From Sacculina carcini (lineage: Eukaryota > Arthropoda > Thecostraca > Sacculinidae): DNA of 64,000 nucleotides. Below are positions 1 through 64,000 of this stretch, piece by piece. Position numbers and translations under genes: made by a program. The notes beneath the pieces were generated by a model. It was not told where the DNA came from, did not search any database, and saw only the letters and a list, made by a program, of their open reading frames with translations. Numbering within the stretch: position 1 is the stretch's first letter; each line of letters begins with the position of its first letter. The stretch is taken from contig OU696593.1 of the NCBI GenBank assembly GCA_916048095.2, positions 310,001 to 374,000 of the forward strand, written 5' to 3'.

Positions 1-2024
1 GCCCTAAATGTGCCCTAAGTGTTACCTAAGTGTGCCCTAAGTGTTACCTAAGTGTTACCTAAGTGTGCCCTAAGTGTTACATAAGTGTGCCCTAAGTGTT
101 ACCTAAGTGTTACCTAAGTGTGCCCTAAGTGTTACCTAAGTGTTACCTAAGTGTTACCTAAGTGTACCCTAAGTGTTACCCAAGTGTGCCCTAAGTGTGC
201 CCTAAGTGTTACCTAAGTGTGCCCTAAGTGTTACCTAAGTATGCCCTAAGTGTTACCTAAGTGTTACCTAAGTGTTACCTAAGTGTGCCCTAAGTGTTAC
301 CTTAGTGTTACCTAAGTGTGCCCTAAGTGTTACCTAAGTGTGCCCTAAGTGTTACCTACGTGTACCCTAAGTGTTACCTAAGTGTTACCTAAGTGTACCC
401 TAAGTGTTACCTAAGTGTTACCTAAGTGTTACCTAAGTGTTACCTAAGTGTTACCTAAGTGTTACCTAAGTGTACCCTAAGTGTTACCTAAGTGTACCCT
501 AAGTGTTACCTAAGTGTTACCTAAGTGTTACCTAAGTGTTACCTCAGTGTGCCCTAAGTGTTACCTAAGTGTGCCCTAAGTGTTACCTAAGTGTTACCTA
601 AGTGTTACCTAAGTGTTACCTAAGTGTTACCTAAGTGTTACCTAAGTGTTACCTAAGTGTTACCTAAGTGTTACCTAAGTGTACCCTAAGTGTACCCTAA
701 GTGTGCCCTAAGTGTTACCTAAGTGTGCCCTAAGTGTTACCTAAGTGTTACCTAAGTGTTACCTAAGTGTGCCCTAAGTGTTACCTAAGTGTTACCTAAG
801 TGTGCCCTAAGTGTTACCTAAGTGTGCCCTAAGTGTTACCTAAGTGTGCCCTAAGTGTTACCTAAGTTTGCCCTAAGTGTTACATAAGTGTGCCCTAAGT
901 GTTACCCAAGTGTTACCTAAGTGTGCCCTAAGTGTTACCTAAGTGTGCCCTAAGTGTTACCTACGTGTGCCCTAAGTGTTACCTAAGTGTGCTCTAAGTG
1001 TTACCTAAGTATGCCCTAAGTGTTACCTAAGTGTGCCCTAAGTGTTACCTAAGTGTTACCTAAGTGTGCCCTAAGTGTTACCTAAGTGTGCCCTAAGTGT
1101 TACCTAAGTGTTACCTAAGTGTTACCTAAGTGTTACCTAAGTGTTACCTAAGTGCGCCCTAAGTGTTACCTAAGTTTGCCATAAGTGTTACATAAGTGTG
1201 CCCTAAGTGTTACCTAAGTGTGCCCTAAGTGTTACCTAAGTGTTACCTAAGTGTGCCCTAAGTGTTACCTACGTGTGCCCTAAGTGTTACCTAAGTGTGC
1301 CCTAAGTGTGCCCTAAGTGTGCCCTAAGTGTGCCCTAAGTGTTACCTAAGTGTGCCCTAAGTGTTACCTAAGTGTGCCCTAAGTGTTACCTACGTGTGCC
1401 CTAAGTGTTACCTAAGTGTACCCTAAGTGTTACCTCAGTGTTACCTAAGTGTTACCTAAGTGTTACCTAAGTGTTATCTAAGTGTTACCTAAGTGTTACC
1501 TAAGTGTTACCTAAGTGTACCCTAAGTGTTACCTAAGTGTTACCTAAGTGTTACCTAAGTGTTACCTCAGTGTGCCCTAAGTGTTACCTAAGTGTGCCCT
1601 AAGTGTTACCTAAGTTTGCCCTAAGTGTTACATAAGTGTTACCTAAGTGTGCCCTAAGTGTTACCTAAGTGTGCCCTAAGTGTTACCTAAGTGTGCCCTA
1701 AGTGTTACCTACGTGTGCCCTAAGTGTTACCTAAGTGTTACCTAAGTGTTACCTAAGTGTTACCTAAGTGTTACCTAAGTGTTACCTAAGCGTTACCTAA
1801 GTGTACCCTAAGTGTTACCTAAGTGTGCCCTAAGTGTTACCTAAGTGTGCCCTAAGTGTTACCTAAGTGTTACCTAAGTGTTACCTAAGTGTGCCCTAAG
1901 TGTTACCTAAGTGTTACCTAAGTGTGCCCTAAGTGTTACCTAAGTGTGCCCTAAGTGTTACCTAAGTGTGCCCTAAGTGTTACCTAAGTTTGCCCTAAGT
2001 GTTACATAAGTGTTACCTAAGTGT

Positions 2025-3443
2025 GCCCTAAGTGTTACCTAAGTGTGCCCTAAGTGTGCCCTAAGTGTGCCCTAAGTGTGCCCTAAGTGTTACCTAAGTG
2101 TGCCCTAAGTGTTACCTAAGTGTGCCCTAAGTGTTACCTACGTGTGCCCTAAGTGTTACCTAAGTGTACCCTAAGTGTTACCTCAGTGTTACCTAAGTGT
2201 TACCTAAGTGTTACCTAAGTGTTACCGAAGTGTTACCTAAGTGTTACCTAAGTGTTACCTAAGTGTACCCTAAGTGTTACCTAAGTGTTACCTAAGTGTT
2301 ACCTAAGTGTTACCTCAGTGTGCCCTAAGTGTTACCTAAGTGTGCCCTAAGTGTTACCCAAGTGTTACCTAAGTGTTACCTAAGTGTTACCTAAGTGTTA
2401 CCTAAGTGTGCCCTAAGTGTTACCTACGTGTGCCCTAAGTGTTACCTAAGTGTGCCCTAAGTGTGCCCTAAGTGTTACCTAAGTGTGCCCTAAGTGTTAC
2501 CTAAGTGTTACCTAAGTGTGCCCTAGGTGTTACCTAAGTGTTACCTAAGTGTGCCCTAAGTGTTACCTACGTGTGCCCTAAGTGTTACCTAAGTGTGCCC
2601 TAAGTGTGCCCTAAGTGTTACCTAAGTGTGCCCTAAGTGTTACCTAAGTGTTACCTAAGTGTGCCCTAAGTGTTACCTACGTGTGCCCTAAGTGTTACCT
2701 AAGTGTACCCTAAGTGTTACCTCAGTGTTACCTAAGTGTTACCTAAGTGTTACCTAAGTGTTACCTAAGTGTTACCTAAGTGTTACCTAAGTGTTACCTA
2801 AGTGTTACCTAAGTGTTACCTAAGTGTTACCTAAGTGTTACCTAAGTGTTACCTCAGTGTGCCCTAAGTGTTACCTAAGTGTGCCCTAAGTGTTACCTAA
2901 GTGTTACCTAAGTGTTACCTAAGTGTTACCTAAGTGTTACCTAAGTGTTACCTAAGTGTTACCTAAGTGTACCCTAAGTGTTACCTAAGTGTGCCCTAAG
3001 TGTTACCTAAGTGTGCCCTAAGTGTTACCTAAGTGTTACCTAAGTGTTACCTAAGTGTGCCCTAAGTGTTACCTAAGTGTTACCTAGGTGTGCCCTAAGT
3101 GTTACCTAAGTGTGCCCTAAGTGTTACCTAAGTGTGCCCTAAGTGTTACCTAAGTTTGCCCTAAGTGTTACATAAGTGTGCCCTAAGTGTTACCTAAGTG
3201 TTACCTAAGTGTTACCTAAGTGTTACCTAAGTGTTACCTAAGTGTGCCCTAAGTGTTACCTTAGTGTTACCTAAGTGTGCCCTAAGAGTTACCTAAGTGT
3301 GCCCTAAGTGTTACCCAAGTGTTACCTAAGTGTGCCCTAAGTGTTACCTAAGTGTGCCCTAGGTGTTACCTAAGTGTTACCTAAGTGTTACCTAAGTGTG
3401 CCCTAAGTGTTACCTACGTGTGCCCTAAGTGTTACCTACGTGT
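2025..3443. repeat. 1419-bp higher-order repeat, copy 1
   Basis: This is the first of two adjacent copies of a 129-monomer block. It matches the next copy at a constant 1419-bp offset through several rare variants: GCCC four-monomer run 2047/3466, CCGAAG 2221/3640, CCCTAGG 2521/3940, CTAAGAG 3282/4701. The match starts at about 2025, just after the monomers (2003 and 2014) that differ from the bases 1419 bp downstream. Confidence 0.9.
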
Positions 3444-4862
3444 GCCCTAAGTGTTACCTAAGTGTGCCCTAAGTGTGCCCTAAGTGTGCCCTAAGTGTGC
3501 CCTAAGTGTTACCTAAGTGTGCCCTAAGTGTTACCTAAGTGTGCCCTAAGTGTTACCTACGTGTGCCCTAAGTGTTACCTAAGTGTACCCTAAGTGTTAC
3601 CTCAGTGTTACCTAAGTGTTACCTAAGTGTTACCTAAGTGTTACCGAAGTGTTACCTAAGTGTTACCTAAGTGTTACCTAAGTGTACCCTAAGTGTTACC
3701 TAAGTGTTACCTAAGTGTTACCTAAGTGTTACCTCAGTGTGCCCTAAGTGTTACCTAAGTGTGCCCTAAGTGTTACCCAAGTGTTACCTAAGTGTTACCT
3801 AAGTGTTACCTAAGTGTTACCTAAGTGTGCCCTAAGTGTTACCTACGTGTGCCCTAAGTGTTACCTAAGTGTGCCCTAAGTGTGCCCTAAGTGTTACCTA
3901 AGTGTGCCCTAAGTGTTACCTAAGTGTTACCTAAGTGTGCCCTAGGTGTTACCTAAGTGTTACCTAAGTGTGCCCTAAGTGTTACCTACGTGTGCCCTAA
4001 GTGTTACCTAAGTGTGCCCTAAGTGTGCCCTAAGTGTTACCTAAGTGTGCCCTAAGTGTTACCTAAGTGTTACCTAAGTGTGCCCTAAGTGTTACCTACG
4101 TGTGCCCTAAGTGTTACCTAAGTGTACCCTAAGTGTTACCTCAGTGTTACCTAAGTGTTACCTAAGTGTTACCTAAGTGTTACCTAAGTGTTACCTAAGT
4201 GTTACCTAAGTGTTACCTAAGTGTTACCTAAGTGTTACCTAAGTGTTACCTAAGTGTTACCTAAGTGTTACCTCAGTGTGCCCTAAGTGTTACCTAAGTG
4301 TGCCCTAAGTGTTACCTAAGTGTTACCTAAGTGTTACCTAAGTGTTACCTAAGTGTTACCTAAGTGTTACCTAAGTGTTACCTAAGTGTACCCTAAGTGT
4401 TACCTAAGTGTGCCCTAAGTGTTACCTAAGTGTGCCCTAAGTGTTACCTAAGTGTTACCTAAGTGTTACCTAAGTGTGCCCTAAGTGTTACCTAAGTGTT
4501 ACCTAGGTGTGCCCTAAGTGTTACCTAAGTGTGCCCTAAGTGTTACCTAAGTGTGCCCTAAGTGTTACCTAAGTTTGCCCTAAGTGTTACATAAGTGTGC
4601 CCTAAGTGTTACCTAAGTGTTACCTAAGTGTTACCTAAGTGTTACCTAAGTGTTACCTAAGTGTGCCCTAAGTGTTACCTTAGTGTTACCTAAGTGTGCC
4701 CTAAGAGTTACCTAAGTGTGCCCTAAGTGTTACCCAAGTGTTACCTAAGTGTGCCCTAAGTGTTACCTAAGTGTGCCCTAGGTGTTACCTAAGTGTTACC
4801 TAAGTGTTACCTAAGTGTGCCCTAAGTGTTACCTACGTGTGCCCTAAGTGTTACCTAAGTGT
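3444..4862. repeat. 1419-bp higher-order repeat, copy 2
   Basis: This is the second tandem copy of the 129-monomer block. It ends precisely where the GCCCTAAATGT marker at 4863 opens a block resembling the start of the window. One visible difference from copy 1 is at the last TACC monomer (TACCTACGTGT at 3433, TACCTAAGTGT at 4852). The near-identity indicates a recent in-register duplication. Confidence 0.9.
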
Positions 4863-6006
4863 GCCCTAAATGTGCCCTAAGTGTTACCTAAGTGTGCCCT
4901 AAGTGTTACCTAAGTGTTACCTAAGTGTGCCCTAAGTGTTACATAAGTGTGCCCTAAGTGTTACCTAAGTGTTACCTAAGTGTGCCCTAAGTGTTACCTA
5001 AGTGTTACCTAAGTGTTACCTAAGTGTACCCTAAGTGTTACCCAAGTGTGCCCTAAGTGTGCCCTAAGTGTTACCTAAGTGTGCCCTAAGTGTTACCTAA
5101 GTATGCCCTAAGTGTTACCTAAGTGTTACCTAAGTGTTACCTAAGTGTGCCCTAAGTGTTACCTTAGTGTTACCTAAGTGTGCCCTAAGTGTTACCTAAG
5201 TGTGCCCTAAGTGTTACCTACGTGTACCCTAAGTGTTACCTCAGTGTTACCTAAGTGTACCCTAAGTGTTACCTAAGTGTTACCTAAGTGTTACCTAAGT
5301 GTTACCTAAGTGTTACCTAAGTGTTACCTAAGTGTTACCTAAGTGTACCCTAAGTGTTACCTAAGTGTACCCTAAGTGTTACCTAAGTGTTACCTAAGTG
5401 TTACCTAAGTGTTACCTCAGTGTGCCCTAAGTGTTACCTAAGTGTGCCCTAAGTGTTACCTAAGTGTTACCTAAGTGTTACCTAAGTGTTACCTAAGTGT
5501 TACCTAAGTGTTACCTAAGTGTTACCTAAGTGTTACCTAAGTGTTACCTAAGTGTACCCTAAGTGTACCCTAAGTGTGCCCTAAGTGTTACCTAAGTGTG
5601 CCCTAAGTGTTACCTAAGTGTTACCTAAGTGTTACCTAAGTGTGCCCTAAGTGTTACCTAAGTGTTACCTAAGTGTGCCCTAAGTGTTACCTAAGTGTGC
5701 CCTAAGTGTTACCTAAGTGTGCCCTAAGTGTTACCTAAGTGTGCCCTAAGTGTTACCTAAGTGTTACCTAAGTGTTACCTAAGTGTGCCCTAAGTGTTAC
5801 CTAAGTGTTACCTAAGTGTGCCCTAAGTGTTACCTAAGTGTGCCCTAAGTGTTACCTAAGTGTGCCCTAAGTGTTACCTAAGTTTGCCCTAAGTGTTACA
5901 TAAGTGTGCCCTAAGTGTTACCTAAGTGTTACCTAAGTGTGCCCTAAGTGTTACCTAAGTGTGCCCTAAGTGTTACCTACGTGTGCCCTAAGTGTTACCT
6001 AAGTGT

Positions 6007-8668
6007 GCCCTAAGTGTTACCTAAGTATGCCCTAAGTGTTACCTAAGTGTGCCCTAAGTGTTACCTAAGTGTTACCTAAGTGTGCCCTAAGTGTACCCTA
6101 AGTGTTACCTAAGTGTTACCTAAGTGTTACCTAAGTGTTACCTAAGTGTGCCCTAAGTGTTACCTTAGTGTTACCTAAGTGTGCCCTAAGAGTTACCTAA
6201 GTGTGCCCTAAGTGTTACCCAAGTGTTACCTAAGTGTGCCCTAAGTGTTACCTAAGTGTGCCCTAGGTGTTACCTAAGTGTTACCTAAGTGTTACCTAAG
6301 TGTGCCCTAAGTGTTACCTACGTGTGCCCTAAGTGTTACCTAAGTGTGCCCTAAATGTGCCCTAAGTGTTACCTAAGTGTGCCCTAAGTGTTACCTAAGT
6401 GTTACCTAAGTGTGCCCTAAGTGTTACATAAGTGTGCCCTAAGTGTTACCTAAGTGTTACCTAAGTGTGCCCTAAGTGTTACCTAAGTGTTACCTAAGTG
6501 TTACCTAAGTGTACCCTAAGTGTTACCTAAGTGTGCCCTAAGTGTGCCCTAAGTGTTACCTAAGTGTGCCCTAAGTGTTACCTAAGTATGCCCTAAGTGT
6601 TACCTAAGTGTTACCTAAGTGTTACCTAAGTGTGCCCTAAGTGTTACCTTAGTGTTACCTAAGTGTGCCCTAAGTGTTACCTAAGTGTGCCCTAAGTGTT
6701 ACCTACGTGTACCCTAAGTGTTACCTCAGTGTTACCTAAGTGTACCCTAAGTGTTACCTAAGTGTTACCTAAGTGTTACCTAAGTGTTACCTAAGTGTTA
6801 CCTAAGTGTTACCTAAGTGTACCCTAAGTGTTACCTAAGTGTACCCTAAGTGTTACCTAAGTGTTACCTAAGTGTTACCTAAGTGTTACCTCAGTGTGCC
6901 CTAAGTGTTACCTAAGTGTGCCCTAAGTGTTACCTAAGTGTTACCTAAGTGTTACCTAAGTGTTACCTAAGTGTTACCTAAGTGTTACCTAAGTGTTACC
7001 TAAGTGTTACCTAAGTGTTACCTAAGTGTACCCTAAGTGTACCCTAAGTGTGCCCTAAGTGTTACCTAAGTGTGCCCTAAGTGTTACCTAAGTGTTACCT
7101 AAGTGTTACCTAAGTGTGCCCTAAGTGTTACCTAAGTGTTACCTAAGTGTGCCCTAAGTGTTACCTAAGTGTGCCCTAAGTGTTACCTAAGTGTGCCCTA
7201 AGTGTTACCTAAGTTTGCCCTAAGTGTTACATAAGTGTGCCCTAAGTGTTACCCAAGTGTTACCTAAGTGTGCCCTAAGTGTTACCTAAGTGTGCCCTAA
7301 GTGTTACCTACGTGTGCCCTAAGTGTTACCTAAGTGTGCTCTAAGTGTTACCTAAGTATGCCCTAAGTGTTACCTAAGTGTGCCCTAAGTGTTACCTAAG
7401 TGTTACCTAAGTGTGCCCTAAGTGTTACCTAAGTGTGCCCTAAGTGTTACCTAAGTGTTACCTAAGTGTTACCTAAGTGTTACCTAAGTGTTACCTAAGT
7501 GCGCCCTAAGTGTTACCTAAGTTTGCCATAAGTGTTACATAAGTGTGCCCTAAGTGTTACCTAAGTGTGCCCTAAGTGTTACCTAAGTGTTACCTAAGTG
7601 TGCCCTAAGTGTTACCTACGTGTGCCCTAAGTGTTACCTAAGTGTGCCCTAAGTGTGCCCTAAGTGTGCCCTAAGTGTGCCCTAAGTGTTACCTAAGTGT
7701 GCCCTAAGTGTTACCTAAGTGTGCCCTAAGTGTTACCTACGTGTGCCCTAAGTGTTACCTAAGTGTACCCTAAGTGTTACCTCAGTGTTACCTAAGTGTT
7801 ACCTAAGTGTTACCTAAGTGTTATCTAAGTGTTACCTAAGTGTTACCTAAGTGTTACCTAAGTGTACCCTAAGTGTTACCTAAGTGTTACCTAAGTGTTA
7901 CCTAAGTGTTACCTCAGTGTGCCCTAAGTGTTACCTAAGTGTGCCCTAAGTGTTACCTAAGTTTGCCCTAAGTGTTACATAAGTGTTACCTAAGTGTGCC
8001 CTAAGTGTTACCTAAGTGTGCCCTAAGTGTTACCTAAGTGTGCCCTAAGTGTTACCTACGTGTGCCCTAAGTGTTACCTAAGTGTTACCTAAGTGTTACC
8101 TAAGTGTTACCTAAGTGTTACCTAAGTGTTACCTAAGCGTTACCTAAGTGTACCCTAAGTGTTACCTAAGTGTGCCCTAAGTGTTACCTAAGTGTGCCCT
8201 AAGTGTTACCTAAGTGTTACCTAAGTGTTACCTAAGTGTGCCCTAAGTGTTACCTAAGTGTTACCTAAGTGTGCCCTAAGTGTTACCTAAGTGTGCCCTA
8301 AGTGTTACCTAAGTGTGCCCTAAGTGTTACCTAAGTTTGCCCTAAGTGTTACATAAGTGTTACCTAAGTGTGCCCTAAGTGTTACCTAAGTGTGCCCTAA
8401 GTGTTACCTAAGTGTGCCCTAAGTGTTACCTACGTGTGCCCTAAGTGTTACCTAAGTGTGCCCTAAGTGTTACCTAAGTATGCCCTAAGTGTTACCTAAG
8501 TGTGCCCTAAGTGTTACCTAAGTGTTACCTAAGTGTGCCCTAAGTGTACCCTAAGTGTTACCTAAGTGTTACCTAAGTGTTACCTAAGTGTTACCTAAGT
8601 GTTACCTAAGTGTTACCTAAGTGCGCCCTAAGTGTTACCTAAGTTTGCCATAAGTGTTACATAAGTGT
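6007..8668. repeat. 2662-bp higher-order repeat, copy 1
   Basis: This 242-monomer block repeats immediately downstream. Shared markers at the 2662-bp offset are AAGTAT-GCCC (6029/8691), CTAAGAG (6186/8848), GCCCTAAATGT (6348/9010), GCTC (7338/10000), GCCATA (7525/10187) and TTATC (7821/10483). It begins after the monomer pair 5996/8658, which differs (TACC against TACA). Confidence 0.88.
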
Positions 8669-11341
8669 GCCCTAAGTGTTACCTAAGTATGCCCTAAGTG
8701 TTACCTAAGTGTGCCCTAAGTGTTACCTAAGTGTTACCTAAGTGTGCCCTAAGTGTACCCTAAGTGTTACCTAAGTGTTACCTAAGTGTTACCTAAGTGT
8801 TACCTAAGTGTGCCCTAAGTGTTACCTTAGTGTTACCTAAGTGTGCCCTAAGAGTTACCTAAGTGTGCCCTAAGTGTTACCCAAGTGTTACCTAAGTGTG
8901 CCCTAAGTGTTACCTAAGTGTGCCCTAGGTGTTACCTAAGTGTTACCTAAGTGTTACCTAAGTGTGCCCTAAGTGTTACCTACGTGTGCCCTAAGTGTTA
9001 CCTAAGTGTGCCCTAAATGTGCCCTAAGTGTTACCTAAGTGTGCCCTAAGTGTTACCTAAGTGTTACCTAAGTGTGCCCTAAGTGTTACATAAGTGTGCC
9101 CTAAGTGTTACCTAAGTGTTACCTAAGTGTGCCCTAAGTGTTACCTAAGTGTTACCTAAGTGTTACCTAAGTGTACCCTAAGTGTTACCTAAGTGTGCCC
9201 TAAGTGTGCCCTAAGTGTTACCTAAGTGTGCCCTAAGTGTTACCTAAGTATGCCCTAAGTGTTACCTAAGTGTTACCTAAGTGTTACCTAAGTGTGCCCT
9301 AAGTGTTACCTAAGTGTTACCTAAGTGTGCCCTAAGTGTTACCTAAGTGTGCCCTAAGTGTTACCTACGTGTACCCTAAGTGTTACCTCAGTGTTACCTA
9401 AGTGTACCCTAAGTGTTACCTAAGTGTTACCTAAGTGTTACCTAAGTGTTACCTAAGTGTTACCTAAGTGTTACCTAAGTGTACCCTAAGTGTTACCTAA
9501 GTGTACCCTAAGTGTTACCTAAGTGTTACCTAAGTGTTACCTAAGTGTTACCTCAGTGTGCCCTAAGTGTTACCTAAGTGTGCCCTAAGTGTTACCTAAG
9601 TGTTACCTAAGTGTTACCTAAGTGTTACCTAAGTGTTACCTAAGTGTTACCTAAGTGTTACCTAAGTGTTACCTAAGTGTTACCTAAGTGTACCCTAAGT
9701 GTACCCTAAGTGTGCCCTAAGTGTTACCTAAGTGTGCCCTAAGTGTTACCTAAGTGTTACCTAAGTGTTACCTAAGTGTGCCCTAAGTGTTACCTAAGTG
9801 TTACCTAAGTGTGCCCTAAGTGTTACCTAAGTGTGCCCTAAGTGTTACCTAAGTGTGCCCTAAGTGTTACCTAAGTTTGCCCTAAGTGTTACATAAGTGT
9901 GCCCTAAGTGTTACCCAAGTGTTACCTAAGTGTGCCCTAAGTGTTACCTAAGTGTGCCCTAAGTGTTACCTACGTGTGCCCTAAGTGTTACCTAAGTGTG
10001 CTCTAAGTGTTACCTAAGTATGCCCTAAGTGTTACCTAAGTGTGCCCTAAGTGTTACCTAAGTGTTACCTAAGTGTGCCCTAAGTGTTACCTAAGTGTGC
10101 CCTAAGTGTTACCTAAGTGTTACCTAAGTGTTACCTAAGTGTTACCTAAGTGTTACCTAAGTGCGCCCTAAGTGTTACCTAAGTTTGCCATAAGTGTTAC
10201 ATAAGTGTGCCCTAAGTGTTACCTAAGTGTGCCCTAAGTGTTACCTAAGTGTTACCTAAGTGTGCCCTAAGTGTTACCTACGTGTGCCCTAAGTGTTACC
10301 TAAGTGTGCCCTAAGTGTGCCCTAAGTGTGCCCTAAGTGTGCCCTAAGTGTTACCTAAGTGTGCCCTAAGTGTTACCTAAGTGTGCCCTAAGTGTTACCT
10401 ACGTGTGCCCTAAGTGTTACCTAAGTGTACCCTAAGTGTTACCTCAGTGTTACCTAAGTGTTACCTAAGTGTTACCTAAGTGTTATCTAAGTGTTACCTA
10501 AGTGTTACCTAAGTGTTACCTAAGTGTACCCTAAGTGTTACCTAAGTGTTACCTAAGTGTTACCTAAGTGTTACCTCAGTGTGCCCTAAGTGTTACCTAA
10601 GTGTGCCCTAAGTGTTACCTAAGTTTGCCCTAAGTGTTACATAAGTGTTACCTAAGTGTGCCCTAAGTGTTACCTAAGTGTGCCCTAAGTGTTACCTAAG
10701 TGTGCCCTAAGTGTTACCTACGTGTGCCCTAAGTGTTACCTAAGTGTTACCTAAGTGTTACCTAAGTGTTACCTAAGTGTTACCTAAGTGTTACCTAAGT
10801 GTTACCTAAGCGTTACCTAAGTGTACCCTAAGTGTTACCTAAGTGTGCCCTAAGTGTTACCTAAGTGTGCCCTAAGTGTTACCTAAGTGTTACCTAAGTG
10901 TTACCTAAGTGTGCCCTAAGTGTTACCTAAGTGTTACCTAAGTGTGCCCTAAGTGTTACCTAAGTGTGCCCTAAGTGTTACCTAAGTGTGCCCTAAGTGT
11001 TACCTAAGTTTGCCCTAAGTGTTACATAAGTGTTACCTAAGTGTGCCCTAAGTGTTACCTAAGTGTGCCCTAAGTGTTACCTAAGTGTGCCCTAAGTGTT
11101 ACCTACGTGTGCCCTAAGTGTTACCTAAGTGTGCCCTAAGTGTTACCTAAGTATGCCCTAAGTGTTACCTAAGTGTGCCCTAAGTGTTACCTAAGTGTTA
11201 CCTAAGTGTGCCCTAAGTGTACCCTAAGTGTTACCTAAGTGTTACCTAAGTGTTACCTAAGTGTTACCTAAGTGTTACCTAAGTGTTACCTAAGTGCGCC
11301 CTAAGTGTTACCTAAGTTTGCCATAAGTGTTACATAAGTGT
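8669..11341. repeat. 2673-bp higher-order repeat, copy 2
   Basis: This is the downstream copy of the 242-monomer block, but 11 bp longer. Between the TTATC marker and the AAGCG marker the offset changes from 2662 to 2673, because the TACCTAAGTGT run before AAGCG (8138 and 10811) holds one extra monomer. This is a clear whole-monomer slippage event. The last shared marker is GCCATA at 8647/11320. Confidence 0.88.
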
Positions 11342-11589
11342 GCCCTAAGTGTTACCTAAGTGTTACCTAAGTGTGCCCTAAGTGTTACCTACGTGTGCCC
11401 TAAGTGTTACCTACGTGTGCCCTAAGTGTTACCTAAGTGTGCCCTAAGTGTGCCCTAAGTGTGCCCTAAGTGTGCCCTAAGTGTTACCTAAGTGTGCCCT
11501 AAGTGTTACCTAAGTGTGCCCTAAGTGTTACCTACGTGTGCCCTAAGTGTTACCTAAGTGTACCCTAAGTGTTACCTCAGTGTTACCTA

Positions 11590-50124: not shown

Positions 50125-50129
50125 TGTTA
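50125..50129. repeat. Target-site duplication, left copy (TGTTA)
   Basis: These are the last five satellite bases before the tail. The same TGTTA occurs at 51666-51670 after the 5' end of the element. The preceding base is G here and C on the right, so the repeat is not longer on that side. Removing the insert and one TGTTA restores the satellite reading GCTCTAAGTGT then TACCTAAGTAT, which exists intact at 991, 7338, 10000, 15214, 30053, 38886 and 43242. Confidence 0.85.
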
Positions 50130-50147
50130 TTATTATTATTATTATTA
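50130..50147 (-). repeat. (TAA)6 3' tail of the retrotransposon
   Basis: On the plus strand seven TTA triplets run from 50127 to 50147. The first (50127-50129) belongs to the satellite and target duplication, leaving six that came with the element. On the element's sense strand this is a terminal (TAA)6 followed by the target copy TAACA. Non-LTR elements of the I type are known for TAA tails. The match between the tail and the TAA at the target nick could have aided priming of reverse transcription. Confidence 0.85.
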
Positions 50148-50280
50148 ATTACAGGCAAATCCAGTAGCATGGGAAGAGTGCAAGCACTATTACCACCCTA
50201 AGGTGGCCCCATGTACCGGAAGCGCCCAAAAGATTCAGAGAGAAAGAGAGTTCGAAGAGAAAAAAGTCTAGAAAGAGAGT
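50148..50280 (-). other. Unique 3'-terminal region of the retrotransposon
   Basis: This is the higher-complexity stretch next to the TAA tail, normally the part of a LINE most conserved between copies because its reverse transcriptase recognises it. Two short hairpins are visible on the plus strand: AGTGC/GCACT with a 2-base loop at 50177-50188, and CCACC/GGTGG with a 4-base loop at 50193-50206. Farther from the tail, about 50227-50290, the plus strand is strongly purine-rich (a pyrimidine tract in the element RNA). No reading frame is supported. A recognition role for the hairpins is inference. Confidence 0.6.
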
Positions 50281-51664: not shown

Positions 51665-51665
51665 C

Positions 51666-51670
51666 TGTTA
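51666..51670. repeat. Target-site duplication, right copy (TGTTA)
   Basis: This is the right-hand partner of the TGTTA at 50125-50129, at the truncated 5' end of the element. It continues directly into CCTAAGTATG, the satellite variant expected next in this higher-order copy. A 5-bp duplication is short for a LINE but within the variation known for target-primed insertions. Confidence 0.85.
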
Positions 51671-54600
51671 CCTAAGTATGCCCTAAGTGTTACCTAAGTG
51701 TGCCCTAAGTGTTACCTAAGTGTTACCTAAGTGTGCCCTAAGTGTTACCTAAGTGTGCCCTAAGTGTTACCTAAGTGTTACCTAAGTGTTACCTAAGTGT
51801 TACCTAAGTGTTACCTAAGTGCGCCCTAAGTGTTACCTAAGTTTGCCATAAGTGTTACATAAGTGTGCCCTAAGTGTTACCTAAGTGTGCCCTAAGTGTT
51901 ACCTAAGTGTTACCTAAGTGTGCCCTAAGTGTTACCTACGTGTGCCCTAAGTGTTACCTAAGTGTGCCCTAAGTGTGCCCTAAGTGTGCCCTAAGTGTGC
52001 CCTAAGTGTTACCTAAGTGTGCCCTAAGTGTTACCTAAGTGTGCCCTAAGTGTTACCTACGTGTGCCCTAAGTGTTACCTAAGTGTACCCTAAGTGTTAC
52101 CTCAGTGTTACCTAAGTGTTACCTAAGTGTTACCTAAGTGTTATCTAAGTGTTACCTAAGTGTTACCTAAGTGTTACCTAAGTGTACCCTAAGTGTTACC
52201 TAAGTGTTACCTAAGTGTTACCTAAGTGTTACCTCAGTGTGCCCTAAGTGTTACCTAAGTGTGCCCTAAGTGTTACCTAAGTTTGCCCTAAGTGTTACAT
52301 AAGTGTTACCTAAGTGTGCCCTAAGTGTTACCTAAGTGTGCCCTAAGTGTTACCTAAGTGTGCCCTAAGTGTTACCTACGTGTGCCCTAAGTGTTACCTA
52401 AGTGTTACCTAAGTGTTACCTAAGTGTTACCTAAGTGTTACCTAAGTGTTACCTAAGCGTTACCTAAGTGTACCCTAAGTGTTACCTAAGTGTGCCCTAA
52501 GTGTTACCTAAGTGTGCCCTAAGTGTTACCTAAGTGTTACCTAAGTGTTACCTAAGTGTGCCCTAAGTGTTACCTAAGTGTTACCTAAGTGTGCCCTAAG
52601 TGTTACCTAAGTGTGCCCTAAGTGTTACCTAAGTGTGCCCTAAGTGTTACCTAAGTTTGCCCTAAGTGTTACATAAGTGTTACCTAAGTGTGCCCTAAGT
52701 GTTACCTAAGTGTGCCCTAAGTGTTACCTAAGTGTGCCCTAAGTGTTACCTACGTGTGCCCTAAGTGTTACCTAAGTGTGCCCTAAGTGTTACCTAAGTA
52801 TGCCCTAAGTGTTACCTAAGTGTGCCCTAAGTGTTACCTAAGTGTTACCTAAGTGTGCCCTAAGTGTACCCTAAGTGTTACCTAAGTGTTACCTAAGTGT
52901 TACCTAAGTGTTACCTAAGTGTTACCTAAGTGTTACCTAAGTGCGCCCTAAGTGTTACCTAAGTTTGCCATAAGTGTTACATAAGTGTGCCCTAAGTGTT
53001 ACCTAAGTGTTACCTAAGTGTGCCCTAAGTGTTACCTACGTGTGCCCTAAGTGTTACCTACGTGTGCCCTAAGTGTTACCTAAGTGTGCCCTAAGTGTGC
53101 CCTAAGTGTGCCCTAAGTGTGCCCTAAGTGTTACCTAAGTGTGCCCTAAGTGTTACCTAAGTGTGCCCTAAGTGTTACCTACGTGTGCCCTAAGTGTTAC
53201 CTAAGTGTACCCTAAGTGTTACCTCAGTGTTACCTAAGTGTTACCTAAGTGTTACCTAAGTGTTACCTAAGTGTTACCTAAGTGTTACCTAAGTGTTACC
53301 TAAGTGTTACCTAAGTGTACCCTAAGTGTTACCTAAGTGTTACCTAAGTGTTACCTAAGTGTTACCTCAGTGTGCCCTAAGTGTTACCTAAGTGTGCCCT
53401 AAGTGTTACCTAAGTGTTACCTAAGTGTTACCTAAGTGTTACCTAAGTGTTACCTAAGTGTTACCTAAGTGTTACCTAAGTGTACCCTAAGTGTTACCTA
53501 AGTGTGCCCTAAGTGTTACCTAAGTGTGCCCTAAGTGTTACCTAAGTGTTACCTAAGTGTTACCTAAGTGTGCCCTAAGTGTTACCTAAATGTTACCTAA
53601 GTGTGCCCTAAGTGTTACCTAAGTGTGCCCTAAGTGTTACCTAAGTTTGCCCTAAGTGTTACATAAGTGTGCCCTAAGTGTTACCTAAGTGTTACCTAAG
53701 TGTGCCCTAAGTGTTACCTAATTGTGCCCTAAGTGTTACCTAAGTGTTACCTAAGTGTTACCTAAGTGTTACCTAAGTGTTACCTAAGTGCGCCCTAAGT
53801 GTTACCTAAGTTTGCCATAAGTGTTACATAAGTGTGCCCTAAGTGTTACCTAAGTGTGCCCTAAGTGTTACCTAAGTGTTACCTAAGTGTGCCCTAAGTG
53901 TTACCTAAGTGTGCCCTAAGTGTTACCTAAGTGTGCCCTAAGTGTGCCCTAAGTGTGCCCTAAGTGTGCCCTAAGTGTTACCTAAGTGTGCCCTAAGTGT
54001 TACCTACGTGTGCCCTAAGTGTTACCTAAGTGTACCCTAAGTGTTACCTCAGTGTTACCTAAGTGTTACCTAAGTGTTACCTAAGTGTTACCTAAGTGTT
54101 ACCTAAGTGTTACCTAAGTGTTACCTCAGTGTGCCCTAAGTGTTACCTAAGTGTGCCCTAAGTGTTACCTAAGTGTTACCTAAGTGTTACCTAAGTGTTA
54201 CCTAAGTGTTACCTAAGTGTTACCTAAGTGTACCCTAAGTGTTACCTAAGTGTGCCCTAAGTGTTACCTAAGTGTTACCTAAGTGTTACCTAAGTGTTAC
54301 CTAAGTGTTACCTAAGTGCGCCCTAAGTGTTACCTAAGTTTGCCATAAGTGTTACATAAGTGTGCCCTAAGTGTTACCTAAGTGTGCCCTAAGTGTTACC
54401 TAAGTGTTACCTAAGTGTGCCCTAAGTGTTACCTACGTGTGCCCTAAGTGTTACCTAAGTGTGCCCTAAGTGTGCCCTAAGTGTGCCCTAAGTGTGCCCT
54501 AAGTGTTACCTAAGTGTGCCCTAAGTGTTACCTAAGTGTGCCCTAAGTGTTACCTACGTGTGCCCTAAGTGTTACCTAAGTGTACCCTAAGTGTTACCTC

Positions 54601-57600
54601 AGTGTTACCTAAGTGTTACCTAAGTGTTACCTAAGTGTTATCTAAGTGTTACCTAAGTGTTACCTAAGTGTTACCTAAGTGTACCCTAAGTGTTACCTAA
54701 GTGTTACCTAAGTGTTACCTAAGTGTTACCTCAGTGTGCCCTAAGTGTTACCTAAGTGTGCCCTAAGTGTTACCTAAGTGTTACCTAAGTGTTACCTAAG
54801 TGTTACCTAAGTGTTACCTAAGTGTTACCTAAGTGTTACCTAAGCGTTACCTAAGTGTACCCTAAGTGTTACCTAAGTGTGCCCTAAGTGTTACCTAAGT
54901 GTGCCCTAAGTGTTACCTAAGTGTTACCTAAGTGTTACCTAAGTGTTACCTAAGTGTACCCTAAGTGTTACCTAAGTGTTACCTAAGTGTTACCTAAGTG
55001 TTACCTCAGTGTGCCCTAAGTGTTACCTAAGTGTGCCCTAAGTGTTACCTAAGTGTTACCTAAGTGTTACCTAAGTGTTACCTAAGTGTTACCTAAGTGT
55101 TACCTAAGTGTTACCTAAGCGTTACCTAAGTGTACCCTAAGTGTTACCTAAGTGTGCCCTAAGTGTTACCTAAGTGTGCCCTAAGTGTTACCTAAGTGTT
55201 ACCTAAGTGTTACCTAAGTGTGCCCTAAGTGTTACCTAAGTTTGCCCTAAGTGTTACATAAGTGTTACCTAAGTGTGCCCTAAGTGTTACCTAAGTGTGC
55301 CCTAAGTGTTACCTAAGTGTGCCCTAAGTGTTACCTACGTGTGCCCTAAGTGTTACCTAAGTGTGCCCTAAGTGTTACCTAAGTATGCCCTAAGTGTTAC
55401 CTAAGTGTGCCCTAAGTGTTACCTAAGTGTTACCTAAGTGTGCCCTAAGTGTACCCTAAGTGTTACCTAAGTGTTACCTAAGTGTTACCTAAGTGTTACC
55501 TAAGTGTTACCTAAGTGATACCTAAGTGCGCCCTAAGTGTTACCTAAGTTTGCCATAAGTGTTACATAAGTGTGCCCTAAGTGTTACCTAAGTGTTACCT
55601 AAGTGTGCCCTAAGTGTTACCTACGTGTGCCCTAAGTGTTACCTACGTGTGCCCTAAGTGTTACCTAAGTGTGCCCTAAGTGTGCCCTAAGTGTGCCCTA
55701 AGTGTGCCCTAAGTGTTACCTAAGTGTGCCCTAAGTGTTACCTAAGTGTGCCCTAAGTGTTACCTACGTGTGCCCTAAGTGTTACCTAAGTGTACCCAAA
55801 GTGTTACCTCAGTGTTACCTAAGTGTTACCTAAGTGTTACCTAAGTGTTACCTAAGTGTTACCTAAGTGTTACCTAAGTGTTACCTAAGTGTTACCTAAG
55901 TGTACCCTAAGTGTTACCTAAGTGTTACCTAAGTGTTACCTAAGTGTTACCTCAGTGTGCCCTAAGTGTTACCTAAGTGTGCCCTAAGTGTTACCTAAGT
56001 GTTACCTAAGTGTTACCTAAGTGTTACCTAAGTGTTACCTAAGTGTTACCTAAGTGTTACCTAAGTGTACCCTAAGTGTTACCTAAGTGTGCCCTAAGTG
56101 TTACCTAAGTGTGCCCTAAGTGTTACCTAAGTGTGCCCTAAGTGTTACCTAAGTGTTACCTAAGTGTTACCTAAGTGTGCCCTAAGTGTTACCTAAGTGT
56201 TACCTAAGTGTGCCCTAAGTGTTACCTAAGTGTGCCCTAAGTGTTACCTACGTGTGCCCTAAGTGTTACCTAAGTGTTACCTAAGTGTTACCTAAGTGCG
56301 CCCTAAGTGTTACCTAAGTTTGCCATAAGTGTTACATAAGTGTGCCCTAAGTGTTACCTAAGTGTTACCTAAGTGTACCCTAAGTGTTACCTCAGTGTTA
56401 CCTAAGTGTTACCTAAGTGTTACCTAAGTGTTACCTAAGTGTTACCTAAGTGTTACCTAAGTGTTACCTAAGTGTTACCTAAGTGTACCCTAAGTGTTAC
56501 CTAAGTGTGCCCTAAGTGTTACCTAAGTGTGCCCTAAGTGTTACCTAAGTGTGCCCTAAGTGTTACCTAAGTGTTACCTAAGTGTTACCTAACTGTGCCC
56601 TAAGTGTTACCTAAGTGTTACCTAAGTGTGCCCTAAGTGTTACCTAAGTGTGCCCTAAGTGTTACCTACGTGTGCCCTAAGTGTTACCTAAGTGTTACCT
56701 AAGTGTTACCTAAGTGCGCCCTAAGTGTTACCTAAGTTTGCCATAAGTGTTACATAAGTGTGCCCTAAGTGTTACCTAAGTGTTACCTAAGTGTACCCTA
56801 AGTGTTACCTCAGTGTTACCTAAGTGTTACCTAAGTGTTACCTAAGTGTTACCTAAGTGTTACCTAAGTGTTACCTAAGTGTTACCTAAGTGTACCCTAA
56901 GTGTTACCTAAGTGTTACCGAAGTGTGCCCTAAGTGTTACCTACGTGTGCCCTAAGTGTTACCTAAGTGTGCCCTAAGTGTTACCTAAGTATGCCCTAAG
57001 TGTTACCTAAGTGTGCCCTAAGTGTTACCTAAGTGTTACCTAAGTGTGCCCTAAGTGTACCCTAAGTGTTACCTAAGTGTTACCTAAGTGTTACCTAAGT
57101 GTTACCTAAGTGTTACCTAAGTGTTACCTAAGTGCGCCCTAAGTGTTACCTAAGTTTGCCATAAGTGTTACATAAGTGTGCCCTAAGTGTTACCTAAGTG
57201 TTACCTAAGTGTGCCCTAAGTGTTACCTACGTGTGCCCTAAGTGTTACCTACGTGTGCCCTAAGTGTTACCTAAGTGTGCCCTAAGTGTGCCCTAAGTGT
57301 GCCCTAAGTGTGCCCTAAGTGTTACCTAAGTGTGCCCTAAGTGTTACCTAAGTGTGCCCTAAGTGTTACCTACGTGTGCCCTAAGTGTTACCTAAGTGTT
57401 ACCTAAGTGTGCCCTAAGTGTACCCTAAGTGTTACCTAAGTGTTACCTCAGTGTGCCCTAAGTGTTACCTAAGTGTGCCCTAAGTGTTACCTAAGTGTTA
57501 CCTAAGTGTTACCTAAGTGTTACCTAAGTGTTACCTAAGTGTTACCTAAGTGTTACCTAAGTGTACCCTAAGTGTTACCTAAGTGTGCCCTAAGTGTTAC

Positions 57601-60600
57601 CTAAGTGTGCCCTAAGTGTTACCTAAGTGTTACCTAAGTGTTACCTAAGTGTGCCCTAAGTGTTACCTAAGTGTTACCTAAGTGTGCCCTAAGTGTTACC
57701 TAAGTGTGCCCTAAGTGTTACCTACGTGTGCCCTAAGTGTTACCTAAGTGTTACCTAAGTGTTACCTAAGTGCGCCCTAAGTGTTACCTAAGTTTGCCAT
57801 AAGTGTTACATAAGTGTGCCCTAAGTGTTACCTAAGTGTTACCTAAGTGTACCCTAAGTGTTACCTCAGTGTTACCTAAGTGTTACCTAAGTGTTACCTA
57901 AGTGTTACCTAAGTGTTACCTAAGTGTGCCCTAAGTGTTACCTACGTGTGCCCTAAGTGTTACCTAAGTGTGCCCTAAGTGTTACCTAAGTATGCCCTAA
58001 GTGTTACCTAAGTGTGCCCTAAGTGTTACCTAAGTGTTACCTAAGTGTGCCCTAAGTGTACCCTAAGTGTTACCTAAGTGTTACCTAAGTGTTACCTAAG
58101 TGTTACCTAAGTGTTACCTAAGTGTGCCCTAAGTGTTACCTAAGTGTTACCTAAGTGTGCCCTAAGTGTACCCTAAGTGTTACCTAAGTGTTACCTCAGT
58201 GTGCCCTAAGTGTTACCTAAGTGTGCCCTAAGTGTTACCTAAGTGTTACCTAAGTGTTACCTAAGTGTTACCTAAGTGTTACCTAAGTGTTACCTAAGTG
58301 TTACCTAAGTGTACCCTAAGTGTTACCTAAGTGTGCCCTAAGTGTTACCTAAGTGTGCCCTAAGTGTTACCTAAGTGTTACCTAAGTGTTACCTAAGTGT
58401 GCCCTAAGTGTTACCTAAGTGTTACCTAAGTGTGCCCTAAGTGTTACCTAAGTGTGCCCTAAGTGTTACCTACGTGTGCCCTAAGTGTTACCTAAGTGTT
58501 ACCTAAGTGTTACCTAAGTGCGCCCTAAGTGTTACCTAAGTTTGCCATAAGTGTTACATAAGTGTGCCCTAAGTGTTACCTAAGTGTTACCTAAGTGTAC
58601 CCTAAGTGTTACCTCAGTGTTACCTAAGTGTTACCTAAGTGTTACCTAAGTGTTACCTAAGTGTTACCTAAGTGTTACCTAAGTGTTACCTAAGTGTACC
58701 CTAAGTGTTACCTAAGTGTTACCTAAGTGTGCCCTAAGTGTTACCTACGTGTGCCCTAAGTGTTACCTAAGTGTGCCCTAAGTGTTACCTAAGTATGCCC
58801 TAAGTGTTACCTAAGTGTGCCCTAAGTGTTACCTAAGTGTTACCTAAGTGTGCCCTAAGTGTACCCTAAGTGTTACCTAAGTGTTACCTAAGTGTTACCT
58901 AAGTGTTACCTAAGTGTTACCTAAGTGTTACCTAAGTGCGCCCTAAGTGTTACCTAAGTTTGCCATAAGTGTTACATAAATGTGCCCTAAGTGTTACCTA
59001 AGTGTTACCTAAGTGTGCCCTAAGTGTTACCTACGTGTGCCCTAAGTGTTACCTACGTGTGCCCTAAGTGTTACCTAAGTGTGCCCTAAGTGTGCCCTAA
59101 GTGTGCCCTAAGTGTGCCCTAAGTGTTACCTAAGTGTGCCCTAAGTGTTACCTAAGTGTGCCCTAAGTGTTACCTACGTGTGCCTTAAGTGTTACCTAAG
59201 TGTACCCTAAGTGTTACCTCAGTGTTACCTAAGTGTTACCTAAGTGTTACCTAAGTGTTACCTAAGTGTTACCTAAGTGTTACCTAAGTGTTACCTAAGT
59301 GTACCCTAAGTGTTACCTAAGTGTTACCTAAGTGTTACCTAAGTGTTACCTCAGTGTGCCCTAAGTGTTACCTAAGTGTGCCCTAAGTGTTACCTAAGTG
59401 TTACCTAAGTGTTACCTAAGTGTTACCTAAGTGTTACCTAAGTGTTACCTAAGTGTTACCTAAGTGTTACCTAAGTGTACCCTAAGTGTTACCTAAGTGT
59501 GCCCTAAGTGTTACCTAAGTGTGCCCTAAGTGTTACCTAAGTGTTACCTAAGTGTTACCTAAGTGTGCCCTAAGTGTTACCTAAGTGTTACCTAAGTGTG
59601 CCCTAAGTGTTACCTAAGTGTGCCCTAAGTGTTACCTAAGTTTGCCCTAAGTGTTACATAAGTGTGCCCTAAGTGTTACCTAAGTGTTACCTAAGTGTGC
59701 CCTAAGTGTTACCTAATTGTGCCCTAAGTGTTACCTAAGTGTTACCTAAGTGTTACCTAAGTGTTACCTAAGTGTTACCTAAGTGCGCCCTAAGTGTTAC
59801 CTAAGTTTGCCATAAGTGTTACATAAGTGTGCCCTAAGTGTTACCTAAGTGTGCCCTAAGTGTTACCTAAGTGTTACCTAAGTGTGCCCTAAGTGTTACC
59901 TACGTGTGCCCTAAGTGTTACCTAAGTGTGCCCTAAGTGTGCCCTAAGTGTGCCCTAAGTGTGCCCTAAGTGTTACCTAAGTGTGCCCTAAGTGTTACCT
60001 AAGTGTGCCCTAAGTGTTACCTACGTGTGCCCTAAGTGTTACCTAAGTGTACCCTAAGTGTTACCTCAGTGTTACCTAAGTGTTACCTAAGTGTTACCTA
60101 AGTGTTACCTAAGTGTTACCTAAGTGTTACCTAAGTGTTACCTAAGTGTACCCTAAGTGTTACCTAAGTGTTACCTAAGTGTTACCTAAGTGTTACCTCA
60201 GTGTGCCCTAAGTGTTACCTAAGTGTGCCCTAAGTGTTACCTAAGTGTTACCTAAGTGTTACCTAAGTGTTACCTAAGTGTTACCTAAGTGTTACCTAAG
60301 TGTTACCTAAGTGTACCCTAAGTGTTACCTAAGTGTGCCCTAAGTGTTACCTAAGTGTGCCCTAAGTGTTACCTAAGTGTTACCTAAGTGTTACCTAAGT
60401 GTGCCCTAAGTGTTACCTAAGTGTTACCTAAGTGTGCCCTAAGTGTTACCTAAGTGTGCCCTAAGTGTTACCTAAGTGTGCCCGAAGTGTTACCTAAGTT
60501 TGCCCTAAGTGTTACATAAGTGTTACCTAAGTGTGCCCTAAGTGTTACCTAAGTGTGCCCTAAGTGTTACCTAAGTGTGCCCTAAGTGTTACCTACGTGT

Positions 60601-63600
60601 GCCCTAAGTGTTACCTAAGTGTGCCCTAAGTGTTACCTAAGTATGCCCTAAGTGTTACCTAAGTGTGCCCTAAGTGTTACCTAAGTGTTACCTAAGTGTG
60701 CCCTAAGTGTACCCTAAGTGTTACCTAAGTGTTACCTAAGTGTTACCTAAGTGTTACCTAAGTGTTACCTAAGTGTTACCTAAGTGCGCCCTAAGTGTTA
60801 CCTAAGTTTGCCATAAGTGTTACATAAGTGTGCCCTAAGTGTTACCTAAGTGTTACCTAAGTGTGCCCTAAGTGTTACCTACGTGTGCCCTAAGTGTTAC
60901 CTACGTGTGCCCTAAGTGTTACCTAAGTGTGCCCTAAGTGTGCCCTAAGTGTGCCCTAAGTGTGCCCTAAGTGTTACCTAAGTGTGCCCTAAGTGTTACC
61001 TAAGTGTGCCCTAAGTGTTACCTACGTGTGCCCTAAGTGTTACCTAAGTGTACCCTAAGTGTTACCTCAGTGTTACCTAAGTGTTACCTAAGTGTTACCT
61101 AAGTGTTACCTAAGTGTTACCTAAGTGTTACCTAAGTGTTACCTAAGTGTACCCTAAGTGTTACCTAAGTGTTACCTAAGTGTTACCTAAGTGTTACCTA
61201 AGTGTGCCCTAAGTGTTACCTAAGTGTTACCTAAGTGTTACCTAAGTGTTACCTCAGTGTGCCCTAAGTGTGCCCTAAGTGTTACCTAAGTGTGCCCTAA
61301 GTGTTACCTAAGTATGCCCTAAGTGTTACCTAAGTGTGCCCTAAGTGTTACCTAAGTGTTACCTAAGTGTGCCCTAAGTGTACCCTAAGTGTTACCTAAG
61401 TGTTACCTAAGTGTTACCTAAGTGTTACCTAAGTGTTACCTAAGTGTTACCTAAGTGCGCCCTAAGTGTTACCTAAGTTTGCCATAAGTGTTACATAAGT
61501 GTGCCCTAAGTGTTACCTAAGTGTTACCTAAGTGTGCCCTAAGTGTTACCTACGTGTGCCCTAAGTGTTACCTACGTGTGCCCTAAGTGTTACCTAAGTG
61601 TGCCCTAAGTGTGCCCTAAGTGTGCCCTAAGTGTGCCCTAAGTGTTACCTAAGTGTGCCCTAAGTGTTACCTAAGTGTGCCCTAAGTGTTACCTACGTGT
61701 GCCCTAAGTGTTACCTAAGTGTACCCTAAGTGTTACCTCAGTGTTACCTAAGTGTTACCTAAGTGTTACCTAAGTGTTACCTAAGTGTTACCTAAGTGTT
61801 ACCTAAGTGTTACCTAAGTGTTACCTAAGTGTACCCTAAGTGTTACCTAAGTGTTACCTAAGTGTTACCTAAGTGTTACCTCAGTGTGCCCTAAGTGTTA
61901 CCTAAGTGTGCCCTAAGTGTTACCTAAGTGTTACCTAAGTGTTACCTAAGTGTTACCTAAGTGTTACCTAAGTGTTACCTAAGTGTTACCTAAGTGTACC
62001 CTAAGTGTTACCTAAGTGTGCCCTAAGTGTTACCTAAGTGTGCCCTAAGTGTTACCTAAGTGTTACCTAAGTGTTACCTAAGTGTGCCCTAAGTGTTACC
62101 TAAGTGTTACCTAAGTGTGCCCTAAGTGTTACCTAAGTGTGCCCTAAGTGTTACCTAAGTTTGCCCTAAGTGTTACATAAGTGTGCCCTAAGTGTTACCT
62201 AAGTGTTACCTAAGTGTGCCCTAAGTGTTACCTAATTGTGCCCTAAGTGTTACCTAAGTGTTACCTAAGTGTTACCTAAGTGTTACCTAAGTGTTACCTA
62301 AGTGCGCCCTAAGTGTTACCTAAGTTTGCCATAAGTGTTACATAAGTGTGCCCTAAGTGTTACCTAAGTGTGCCCTAAGTGTTACCTAAGTGTTACCTAA
62401 GTGTGCCCTAAGTGTTACCTACGTGTGCCCTAAGTGTTACCTAAGTGTGCCCTAAGTGTGCCCTAAGTGTGCCCTAAGTGTGCCCTAAGTGTTACCTAAG
62501 TGTGCCCTAAGTGTTACCTAAGTGTGCCCTAAGTGTTACCTACGTGTGCCCTAAGTGTTACCTAAGTGTACCCTAAGTGTTACCTCAGTGTTACCTAAGT
62601 GTTACCTAAGTGTTACCTAAGTGTTACCTAAGTGTTACCTAAGTGTACCCTAAGTGTTACCTAAGTGTTACCTAAGTGTTACCTAAGTGTTACCTCAGTG
62701 TGCCCTAAGTGTTACCTAAGTGTGCCCTAAGTGTTACCTAAGTGTTACCTAAGTGTTACCTAAGTGTTACCTAAGTGTTACCTAAGTGGTACCTAAGTGT
62801 ACCCTAAGTGTTACCTAAGTGTGCCCTAAGTGTTACCTAAGTGTTACCTAAGTGTTACCTAAGTGTTACCTAAGTGTTACCTAAGTGCGCCCTAAGTGTT
62901 ACCTAAGTTTGCCATAAGTGTTACATAAGTGTGCCCTAAGTGTTACCTAAGTGTGCCCTAAGTGTTACCTAAGTGTTACCTAAGTGTGCCCTAAGTGTTA
63001 CCTACGTGTGCCCTAAGTGTTACCTAAGTGTGCCCTAAGTGTGCCCTAAGTGTGCCCTAAGTGTGCCCTAAGTGTTACCTAAGTGTGCCCTAAGTGTTAC
63101 CTAAGTGTGCCCTAAGTGTTACCTACGTGTGCCCTAAGTGTTACCTAAGTGTACCCTAAGTGTTACCTCAGTGTTACCTAAGTGTTACCTAAGTGTTACC
63201 TAAGTGTTATCTAAGTGTTACCTAAGTGTTACCTAAGTGTTACCTAAGTGTACCCTAAGTGTTACCTAAGTGTTACCTAAGTGTTACCTAAGTGTTACCT
63301 CAGTGTGCCCTAAGTGTTACCTAAGTGTGCCCTAAGTGTTACCTAAGTGTTACCTAAGTGTTACCTAAGTGTTACCTAAGTGTTACCTAAGTGTTACCTA
63401 AGTGTTACCTAAGTGTACCCTAAGCGTTACCTAAGTGTGCCCTAAGTGTTACCTAAGTGTGCCCTAAGTGTTACCTAAGTGTTACCTAAGTGTTACCTAA
63501 GTGTGCCCTAAGTGTTACCTAAGTGTTACCTAAGTGTGCCCTAAGTGTTACCTAAGTGTGCCCTAAGTGTTACCTAAGTTTGCCCTAAGTGTTACATAAG

Positions 63601-64000
63601 TGTGCCCTAAGTGTTACCTAAGTGTTACCTAAGTGTGCCCTAAGTGTTACCTAATTGTGCCCTAAGTGTTACCTAAGTGTTACCTAAGTGTTACCTAAGT
63701 GCGCCCTAAGTGTTACCTAAGTTTGCCATAAGTGTTACATAAGTGTGCCCTAAGTGTTACCTAAGTGTTACCTAAGTGTGCCCTAAGTGTTACCTACGTG
63801 TGCCCTAAGTGTTACCTACGTGTGCCCTAAGTGTTACCTAAGTGTGCCCTAAGTGTGCCCTAAGTGTGCCCTAAGTGTGCCCTAAGTGTTACCTAAGTGT
63901 GCCCTAAGTGTTACCTAAGTGTGCCCTAAGTGTTACCTACGTGTGCCCTAAGTGTTACCTAAGTGTACCCTAAGTGTTACCTCAGTGTTACCTAAGTGTT
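51666..64000. repeat. 11-bp satellite array, right arm
   Basis: The same 11-bp satellite resumes directly after the retrotransposon and runs to the window edge, about 1,121 monomers. The register is again constant, but monomer starts now equal 2 modulo 11. This is the shift expected from a 1541-bp net insertion (140 x 11 + 1). The first monomers continue the higher-order pattern broken at 50129: AAGTAT followed by GCCC appears just after the junction, as it does after the GCTC monomer in intact copies. Monomer types and marker cassettes are the same as in the left arm. Private single-base variants include GATACC near 55518, CCCAAAG near 55797, CCCGAAG near 60483 and GGTACC near 62788. The array is cut by the window end, so its true length is unknown. 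Confidence 0.98.

Follow-up and report, generated by a model that had tools for sequence, protein, structure and literature searches.

How can several thousand copies of a unit of only 11 base pairs (bp) be kept in one register over more than 60 kb? This question is raised by a 64,000-nucleotide stretch of the genome of Sacculina carcini (contig OU696593.1, positions 310,001 to 374,000; C26:310001-374000 in the contig numbering used here), referred to below as the window, which consists of an 11-bp satellite interrupted by one insert resembling a long interspersed nuclear element (LINE). C26 is 7.27 Mb long, with the window near its left end, and belongs to a genome of 264.4 Mb in 43 contigs. 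A preliminary description of the window had reported the strict register and had left a choice between exchange of whole units and a constraint on the spacing itself. The results presented here make it very probable that the register is a by-product of copying in blocks of whole units, and that this is an ordinary short-unit satellite for which no constraint is needed. The array occupies two parts of the window:

1..50129, + strand: 11-bp satellite array (TACCTAAGTGT / GCCCTAAGTGT / ACCCTAAGTGT), unit starts at 1 modulo 11, every unit 11 bp

51671..64000, + strand: continuation of the satellite array to the right of the insert, unit starts at 2 modulo 11

The array on the + strand was confirmed and its reported size of about 62 kb is corrected to about 62.5 kb, to which the LINE-like insert, the only non-satellite sequence of the window, adds about 1.5 kb. 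Exact copies of the core CCTAAGTGT were found 4,758 times, and the gaps between neighboring cores were divisible by 11 in 4,756 of 4,757 cases (4,002 gaps of 11 bp, 667 of 22, 11 of 33, and 76 of 44); the sole exception, a gap of 1,574 bp, spans the insert. When C26:290001-394000, which includes the window, was analyzed by indel-tolerant cyclic alignment with the insert cut out, 9,311 of 9,312 units measured 11 bp, and the lone 10-bp unit, at about C26:290,732, falls outside the window. The 5,677 satellite units of the window, arranged head to tail, are all 11 bp long in this indel-tolerant alignment, and hidden pairs of 10- and 12-bp units that cancel each other out are therefore absent. Core gaps and alignment agree with the reported unit starts at 1 modulo 11 on the left of the insert and 2 modulo 11 on its right, and the tabulated unit lengths agree with the reported lack of off-register indels. 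Only 30 monomer types occur among the 4,554 monomers of the left arm. Three spacer forms are common in the satellite (TA, GC, and AC), and the longest homopolymer in the consensus unit is CCC.

The preliminary description had argued from roughly 5,700 monomers, but these are not independent tests of the register, because most units sit in long exact duplicates. Of the 5,677 units, 5,244 belong to exact duplicates that are 30 or more units (330 bp) long, compared with none in three first-order Markov controls, which were scored at this length only, and 4,887 belong to duplicates of 50 or more units. The window has 46 maximal exact repeats that reach 990 bp or more, the distances between the two copies of these 46 longest pairs range from 129 to 4,465 units, and the longest duplicate is the following:

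15236..17314, + strand: longest exact duplicate, copy one (189 units, 2,079 bp)

51680..53758, + strand: longest exact duplicate, copy two (2,079 bp), 36,444 bp from copy one

For 40-unit blocks, the best match elsewhere in the window had a median identity of 1.0, and a Lempel-Ziv parse divided the window into 179 phrases; the same parse yielded 746 phrases in one Markov control and 925 in one sequence of shuffled units. The window is pieced together from a limited set of copied blocks and, given the 179 phrases, the independent histories in it are effectively hundreds or fewer. A fixed higher-order repeat was considered and rejected, as no long lag dominates (in the left arm the best lag is 22 bp with 0.922, the next 33,242 bp with 0.906, and the median is 0.884) and copy distances vary; blocks have been copied, but there is no single block length.

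Copies were compared with each other in C26 samples, using exact anchors of 132 bp, at most 12 variants per anchor, and shifts of up to 330 bp. Counted as distinct events, the differences between near-identical blocks comprised 85 whole-unit indels, 49 single substitutions, and 1 off-register indel, and the whole-unit length changes spanned 1 to 30 units, 30 being the limit of the search. With anchors of 220 bp, 35 whole-unit, 39 substitution, and 1 off-register events were obtained and 975 pairs were unclassed. These whole-unit length differences and the long exact duplicates bear out the earlier proposal that copying occurs by whole-unit exchange. In a C26 sample of 12,943 units, from which only the insert and cut end units are excluded, 55 substitution types and 4 off-length types were present. 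A second count, of 12,350 units with 54 substitution types, omits most of C26:1-10000, some 20 bases flanking the insert and the 10-bp unit, and a single unit whose core has more than 2 mismatches; with the 54 types of this count, the off-length share of types is 4/58 (95% interval 1.9-16.7%). In the 12,350 units, substitutions hit all nine core positions and 18 types occur once. The same units contain 22 rare two-base spacers of 7 kinds, which can be compared roughly with the 4 off-length units that the larger sample has in or beside the spacer; 3 of these fall within the omitted part of C26:1-10000. There is no clear deficit of sub-unit indels as mutational events. On another contig, all 908 units of C20:1-10000 were 11 bp long.

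Such an array would grow and turn over by the copying and deletion of blocks of whole units, for which the candidate routes are unequal exchange between sister chromatids, gene conversion, and break-induced copying, each acting on 11-bp repeats in good alignment, and many monomers would descend from few mutational histories. The register would be kept because growth and turnover proceed by whole-unit blocks. One-base indels would enter seldom because the unit lacks a long homopolymer, and most of those that enter would be lost through random block turnover. A repeat of 11 bp slips in steps of 11 bp and no homopolymer exceeds CCC, so that the earlier expectation of a register scrambled by single-base slippage was a weak premise.

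In neutral simulations (24 runs per setting, a stretch being clean when no off-length unit occurred in 5,677 units), an indel:substitution ratio of 0.07 with 61 or 34 substitution types gave a clean stretch in 8% or 46% of runs. Several observations weigh against block copying as the full account. With more mutation input at the ratio of 0.07, clean stretches appeared in 0 or 4% of runs, a ratio of 0.15 gave them in 0 to 8%, no setting reproduced the count of substitution types together with the 15% share of substitution-bearing units, and the ratios themselves were assumed, not taken from ordinary DNA of this genome. Among the C26 units, about 15% carry a substitution whereas 7 of 12,943 (0.05%) are off-length, and four types drawn from the copy-number spectrum of the substitutions total at most 7 copies with p = 0.045. 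In the comparison with 132-bp anchors, 1,309 divergent pairs were unclassed. Off-length units may thus have been amplified somewhat less than expected, and there may be a weak bias against their spreading, such as could result if looped heteroduplexes undergo mismatch repair during exchange.

A long head-to-tail array, its presence on several contigs, and homogenization by turnover make this a short-unit satellite. The short satellites of Drosophila, with units of 5-10 bp (reviewed in PMC8122249), are alike in their very short head-to-tail unit, their homogenization by turnover, and their distribution over many chromosomes or contigs, whereas the present unit has 11 bp with TA, GC, or AC spacers and often lies near contig ends, and those of Drosophila are described there as centromeric. 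In Smith's unequal-crossover model, as outlined in the same review (PMC8122249), crossover alone yields and maintains periodic arrays of sequence not under selection. Arrays would originate and persist here in the same way, but copies of 1-2 kb also lie up to about 49 kb apart, so that adjacent exchange probably has to be supplemented by gene conversion or by the nested copying of blocks. Given block copying, the window offers a clean example of thousands of short units in strict register without a constraint on spacing, and rare off-length units with countable copy numbers could serve as a gauge of satellite turnover. Among the matches listed in a literature search by topic, no paper names this satellite in its title, and a search with six 9-10-mers of the unit returned, among the matches listed, papers that by title concern primers, viruses, or unrelated subjects.

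In other arrays of the satellite, off-register units recur in blocks. The spacing patterns used to find them register an indel only where it falls in the spacer or the runs next to it and the cores on both sides are exact; genome-wide, 486,287 exact neighbor pairs were spaced 11 bp apart, 116 were spaced 10 bp, and 82 were spaced 12 bp. Many of the rare 1-bp changes lie in the short C and T runs of the unit. One 12-bp spacer form occurs 27 times on C22. Among the matches listed, one off-length form on C20 occurs 10 times, in two groups of five separated by exactly 2,333 bp, and one 10-bp form on C27 occurs at least 30 times, with 8 pairs 912 bp apart. These pairs of 10-bp units, located at C27:173636-216483, apparently mark a copied block bearing a register shift. 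For C20, C22, and C27, block copying is judged from places and spacings and not from sequence. On C8, at least 15 ten-bp matches were found, and all 8 loci whose sequence was examined display the same pair of 10 and 28 bp with a net shift of 5 modulo 11; the loci examined on C10 and C8 were chosen for holding an off-length unit and are not a random sample. In C30:1-10000, a non-satellite insert of 176 bp is present seven times (at 306, 2196, 3085, 4227, 5072, 5961, and 6850), copies 2 to 7 each differing from the first at 2 positions. The spacings between these copies, 845 to 1,890 bp, are always 9 modulo 11, indicating that the intervening satellite gains or loses whole units only while the register shift is carried along.

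Off-length units were also seen to be dense at C26:1488-2316, C28:1027-24821, and C30:8850-31261, all near contig starts. These may be either less homogenized array edges or places of lower consensus quality.

Short-repeat arrays of this length are difficult to assemble, and assembly or polishing might have removed real 1-bp indels or created the long duplicates. Such an artefact would fit with 4 of the 7 off-length units of the C26 samples falling in the first 2.4 kb and with many of the off-length units listed genome-wide lying near the starts of C28 and C30, places at which read support may be lower. However, the assembly retains 18 once-only substitution types in the 12,350 units and 198 off-length spacers genome-wide, which suggests that consensus calling does not generally erase rare variants. 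We therefore regard an artefact as unlikely.

A possible link of the satellite with telomeres is raised by its sequence and its distribution. The satellite fills eight 10-kb samples between C26:1 and 510,000, presumably as one continuous array, and is absent from the C26 samples at 700,001, 1,000,001, and 2,000,001. Among the matches listed, it has places on at least 22 of the 43 contigs, small ones included. C26, C20, and C30 begin in satellite, where the contig end may be a mere stop of the assembly, and in C4, C8, and C10 arrays are found about 0.5 Mb or less from a known contig end. A patch at C2:9627971-9628111, far from both ends of this 13.9-Mb contig, speaks against a purely terminal distribution, and the arrays do not share one orientation with respect to the nearest end, being + at the start of C26 and - at the start of C27. 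As a side observation, C2 starts with 5,000 N, and C1 and C40 start with 7,500 N. Triplets of TTAGG are frequent genome-wide (11,678 + 12,284, against 48 + 44 for the reversed control), which suggests an arthropod, and all 100 places among the matches listed are on C1. At C1:1241822-1241980, internal TTAGG triplets recur every 24 bp, which indicates that an interstitial minisatellite contains TTAGG as well.

Short tracts of (CCTAA)n adjoin the satellite in shared CCTAA phase at 8 of 10 junctions, one of them with a variant unit, and two of the ten (C43:764-790 and 4199-4225, minus strand) are perhaps one duplicated site. The satellite thus shares with (TTAGG)n and non-canonical telomere motifs of insects the CCTAA/TTAGG pentamer and in-phase junctions, whereas here a mosaic of variant units forms long arrays and a role in terminal capping is putative. 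In C2:5001-8000, more divergent satellite is interrupted by TTAGG tracts antiparallel to the CCTAA of the satellite. Kinship of the satellite with the TTAGG telomere repeats is an unproven hint. It could be imagined, although we consider it about as unlikely as an assembly artefact, that the satellite had its origin in (CCTAA)n and has continued to exchange with it, that long arrays near chromosome ends are a buffer or backup telomere maintained by recombination, and that the 11-bp step is left over from pairing with telomeric DNA, or with the proteins that bind it, or is needed for such pairing. If the telomere link were real, the satellite would bear on the buffering of chromosome ends.

The preliminary description had also suggested that the spacing itself is under constraint. 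Selection for the 11-bp spacing, for example through a protein that contacts each unit from the same side of the helix, with off-length units being purged, would account for off-length units making up only about 0.04% of exact pairs genome-wide and for their copy numbers in C26, slightly below those of substitutions (p = 0.045). In a protein-phased array, units of other spacing are expected to be absent or unamplified, and this is not what is found on C8, C20, C22, C27, and C30: units of 10 or 12 bp recur about 10 to 30 times inside single arrays of C8, C20, C22, and C27, the pair of 10 and 28 bp on C8 moves the register by 5 modulo 11 each time, and the 176-bp insert of C30, with a register shift of 9, is present seven times. 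The insert in the window itself moves the register by 1, and substitutions are found at all nine core positions. Register shifts are thus both tolerated and copied in other arrays, which speaks against a strict requirement for this spacing, and selection on the spacing is accordingly very unlikely.

Least probable of all is an origin of the unit as a telomeric repeat, diverged or alternative (CCTAA + GTGTTA), that telomerase makes and whose length reflects an 11-nucleotide template. In its favor, the unit includes CCTAA, 8 of 10 junctions with (CCTAA)n are in phase, several arrays lie near contig ends, and insect telomere motifs longer than 5 bp are reported, such as (TTAGGGATGG)n of Cimex (PMC11354137). 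Against it, the TA, GC, and AC spacers and the 55 substitution types in long copied blocks are unlike the product of a single template, TTAGG triplets are abundant, an 11-mer contains CCTAA or a rotation of it by chance in about 10% of cases (our own estimate), the common CCTAA makes in-phase joining likely through recombination alone, the TTAGG tracts of C2 are antiparallel to the satellite, and a satellite patch lies deep inside C2.

The change of register within the window, from 1 to 2 modulo 11, is explained by the LINE-like insert alone, whose features are the following:

50125..50129, no strand: TGTTA, left copy of a 5-bp flanking repeat (target-site duplication or microhomology)

50130..51665, - strand: LINE-like insert, 5'-truncated, with a (TTA)n = (TAA)n tail, 3' end on the left and head on the right

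50498..50778, no strand: 30-bp tandem repeat of 9.3 copies, with AATAAATATGATTC, in the 3' part of the LINE-like insert

50948..51667, - strand: open frame of 239 amino acids inside the LINE-like insert

51666..51670, no strand: TGTTA, right copy of the 5-bp flanking repeat (target-site duplication or microhomology)

The net insertion amounts to 1,541 bp, or 140 x 11 + 1, and the whole shift is accounted for by this remainder of 1. When the flanks were rejoined without the 1,541 bp, the resulting 66-bp empty-site junction had 7 exact copies elsewhere in the window, and its six equivalent cut points correspond to the 5-bp repeat TGTTA. A Pfam search with the 239-amino-acid frame gave no match to a reverse transcriptase and one unrelated match below the cut-off; we take the frame to resemble the C-terminal part of ORF2 of non-LTR (long terminal repeat) retrotransposons. 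We call the insert LINE-like on account of its tail, its 5' truncation, its flanking repeats, its dispersed copies, and this presumed protein likeness. The element has 1,101 candidate places in the genome, and all 40 that were scored have 99-100% identity, which makes the insertion look recent. Of these 40 copies, 35 lie more than 500 kb from a contig start, the right ends of contigs being not all known, and the element family is thus seemingly not aimed at the satellite.

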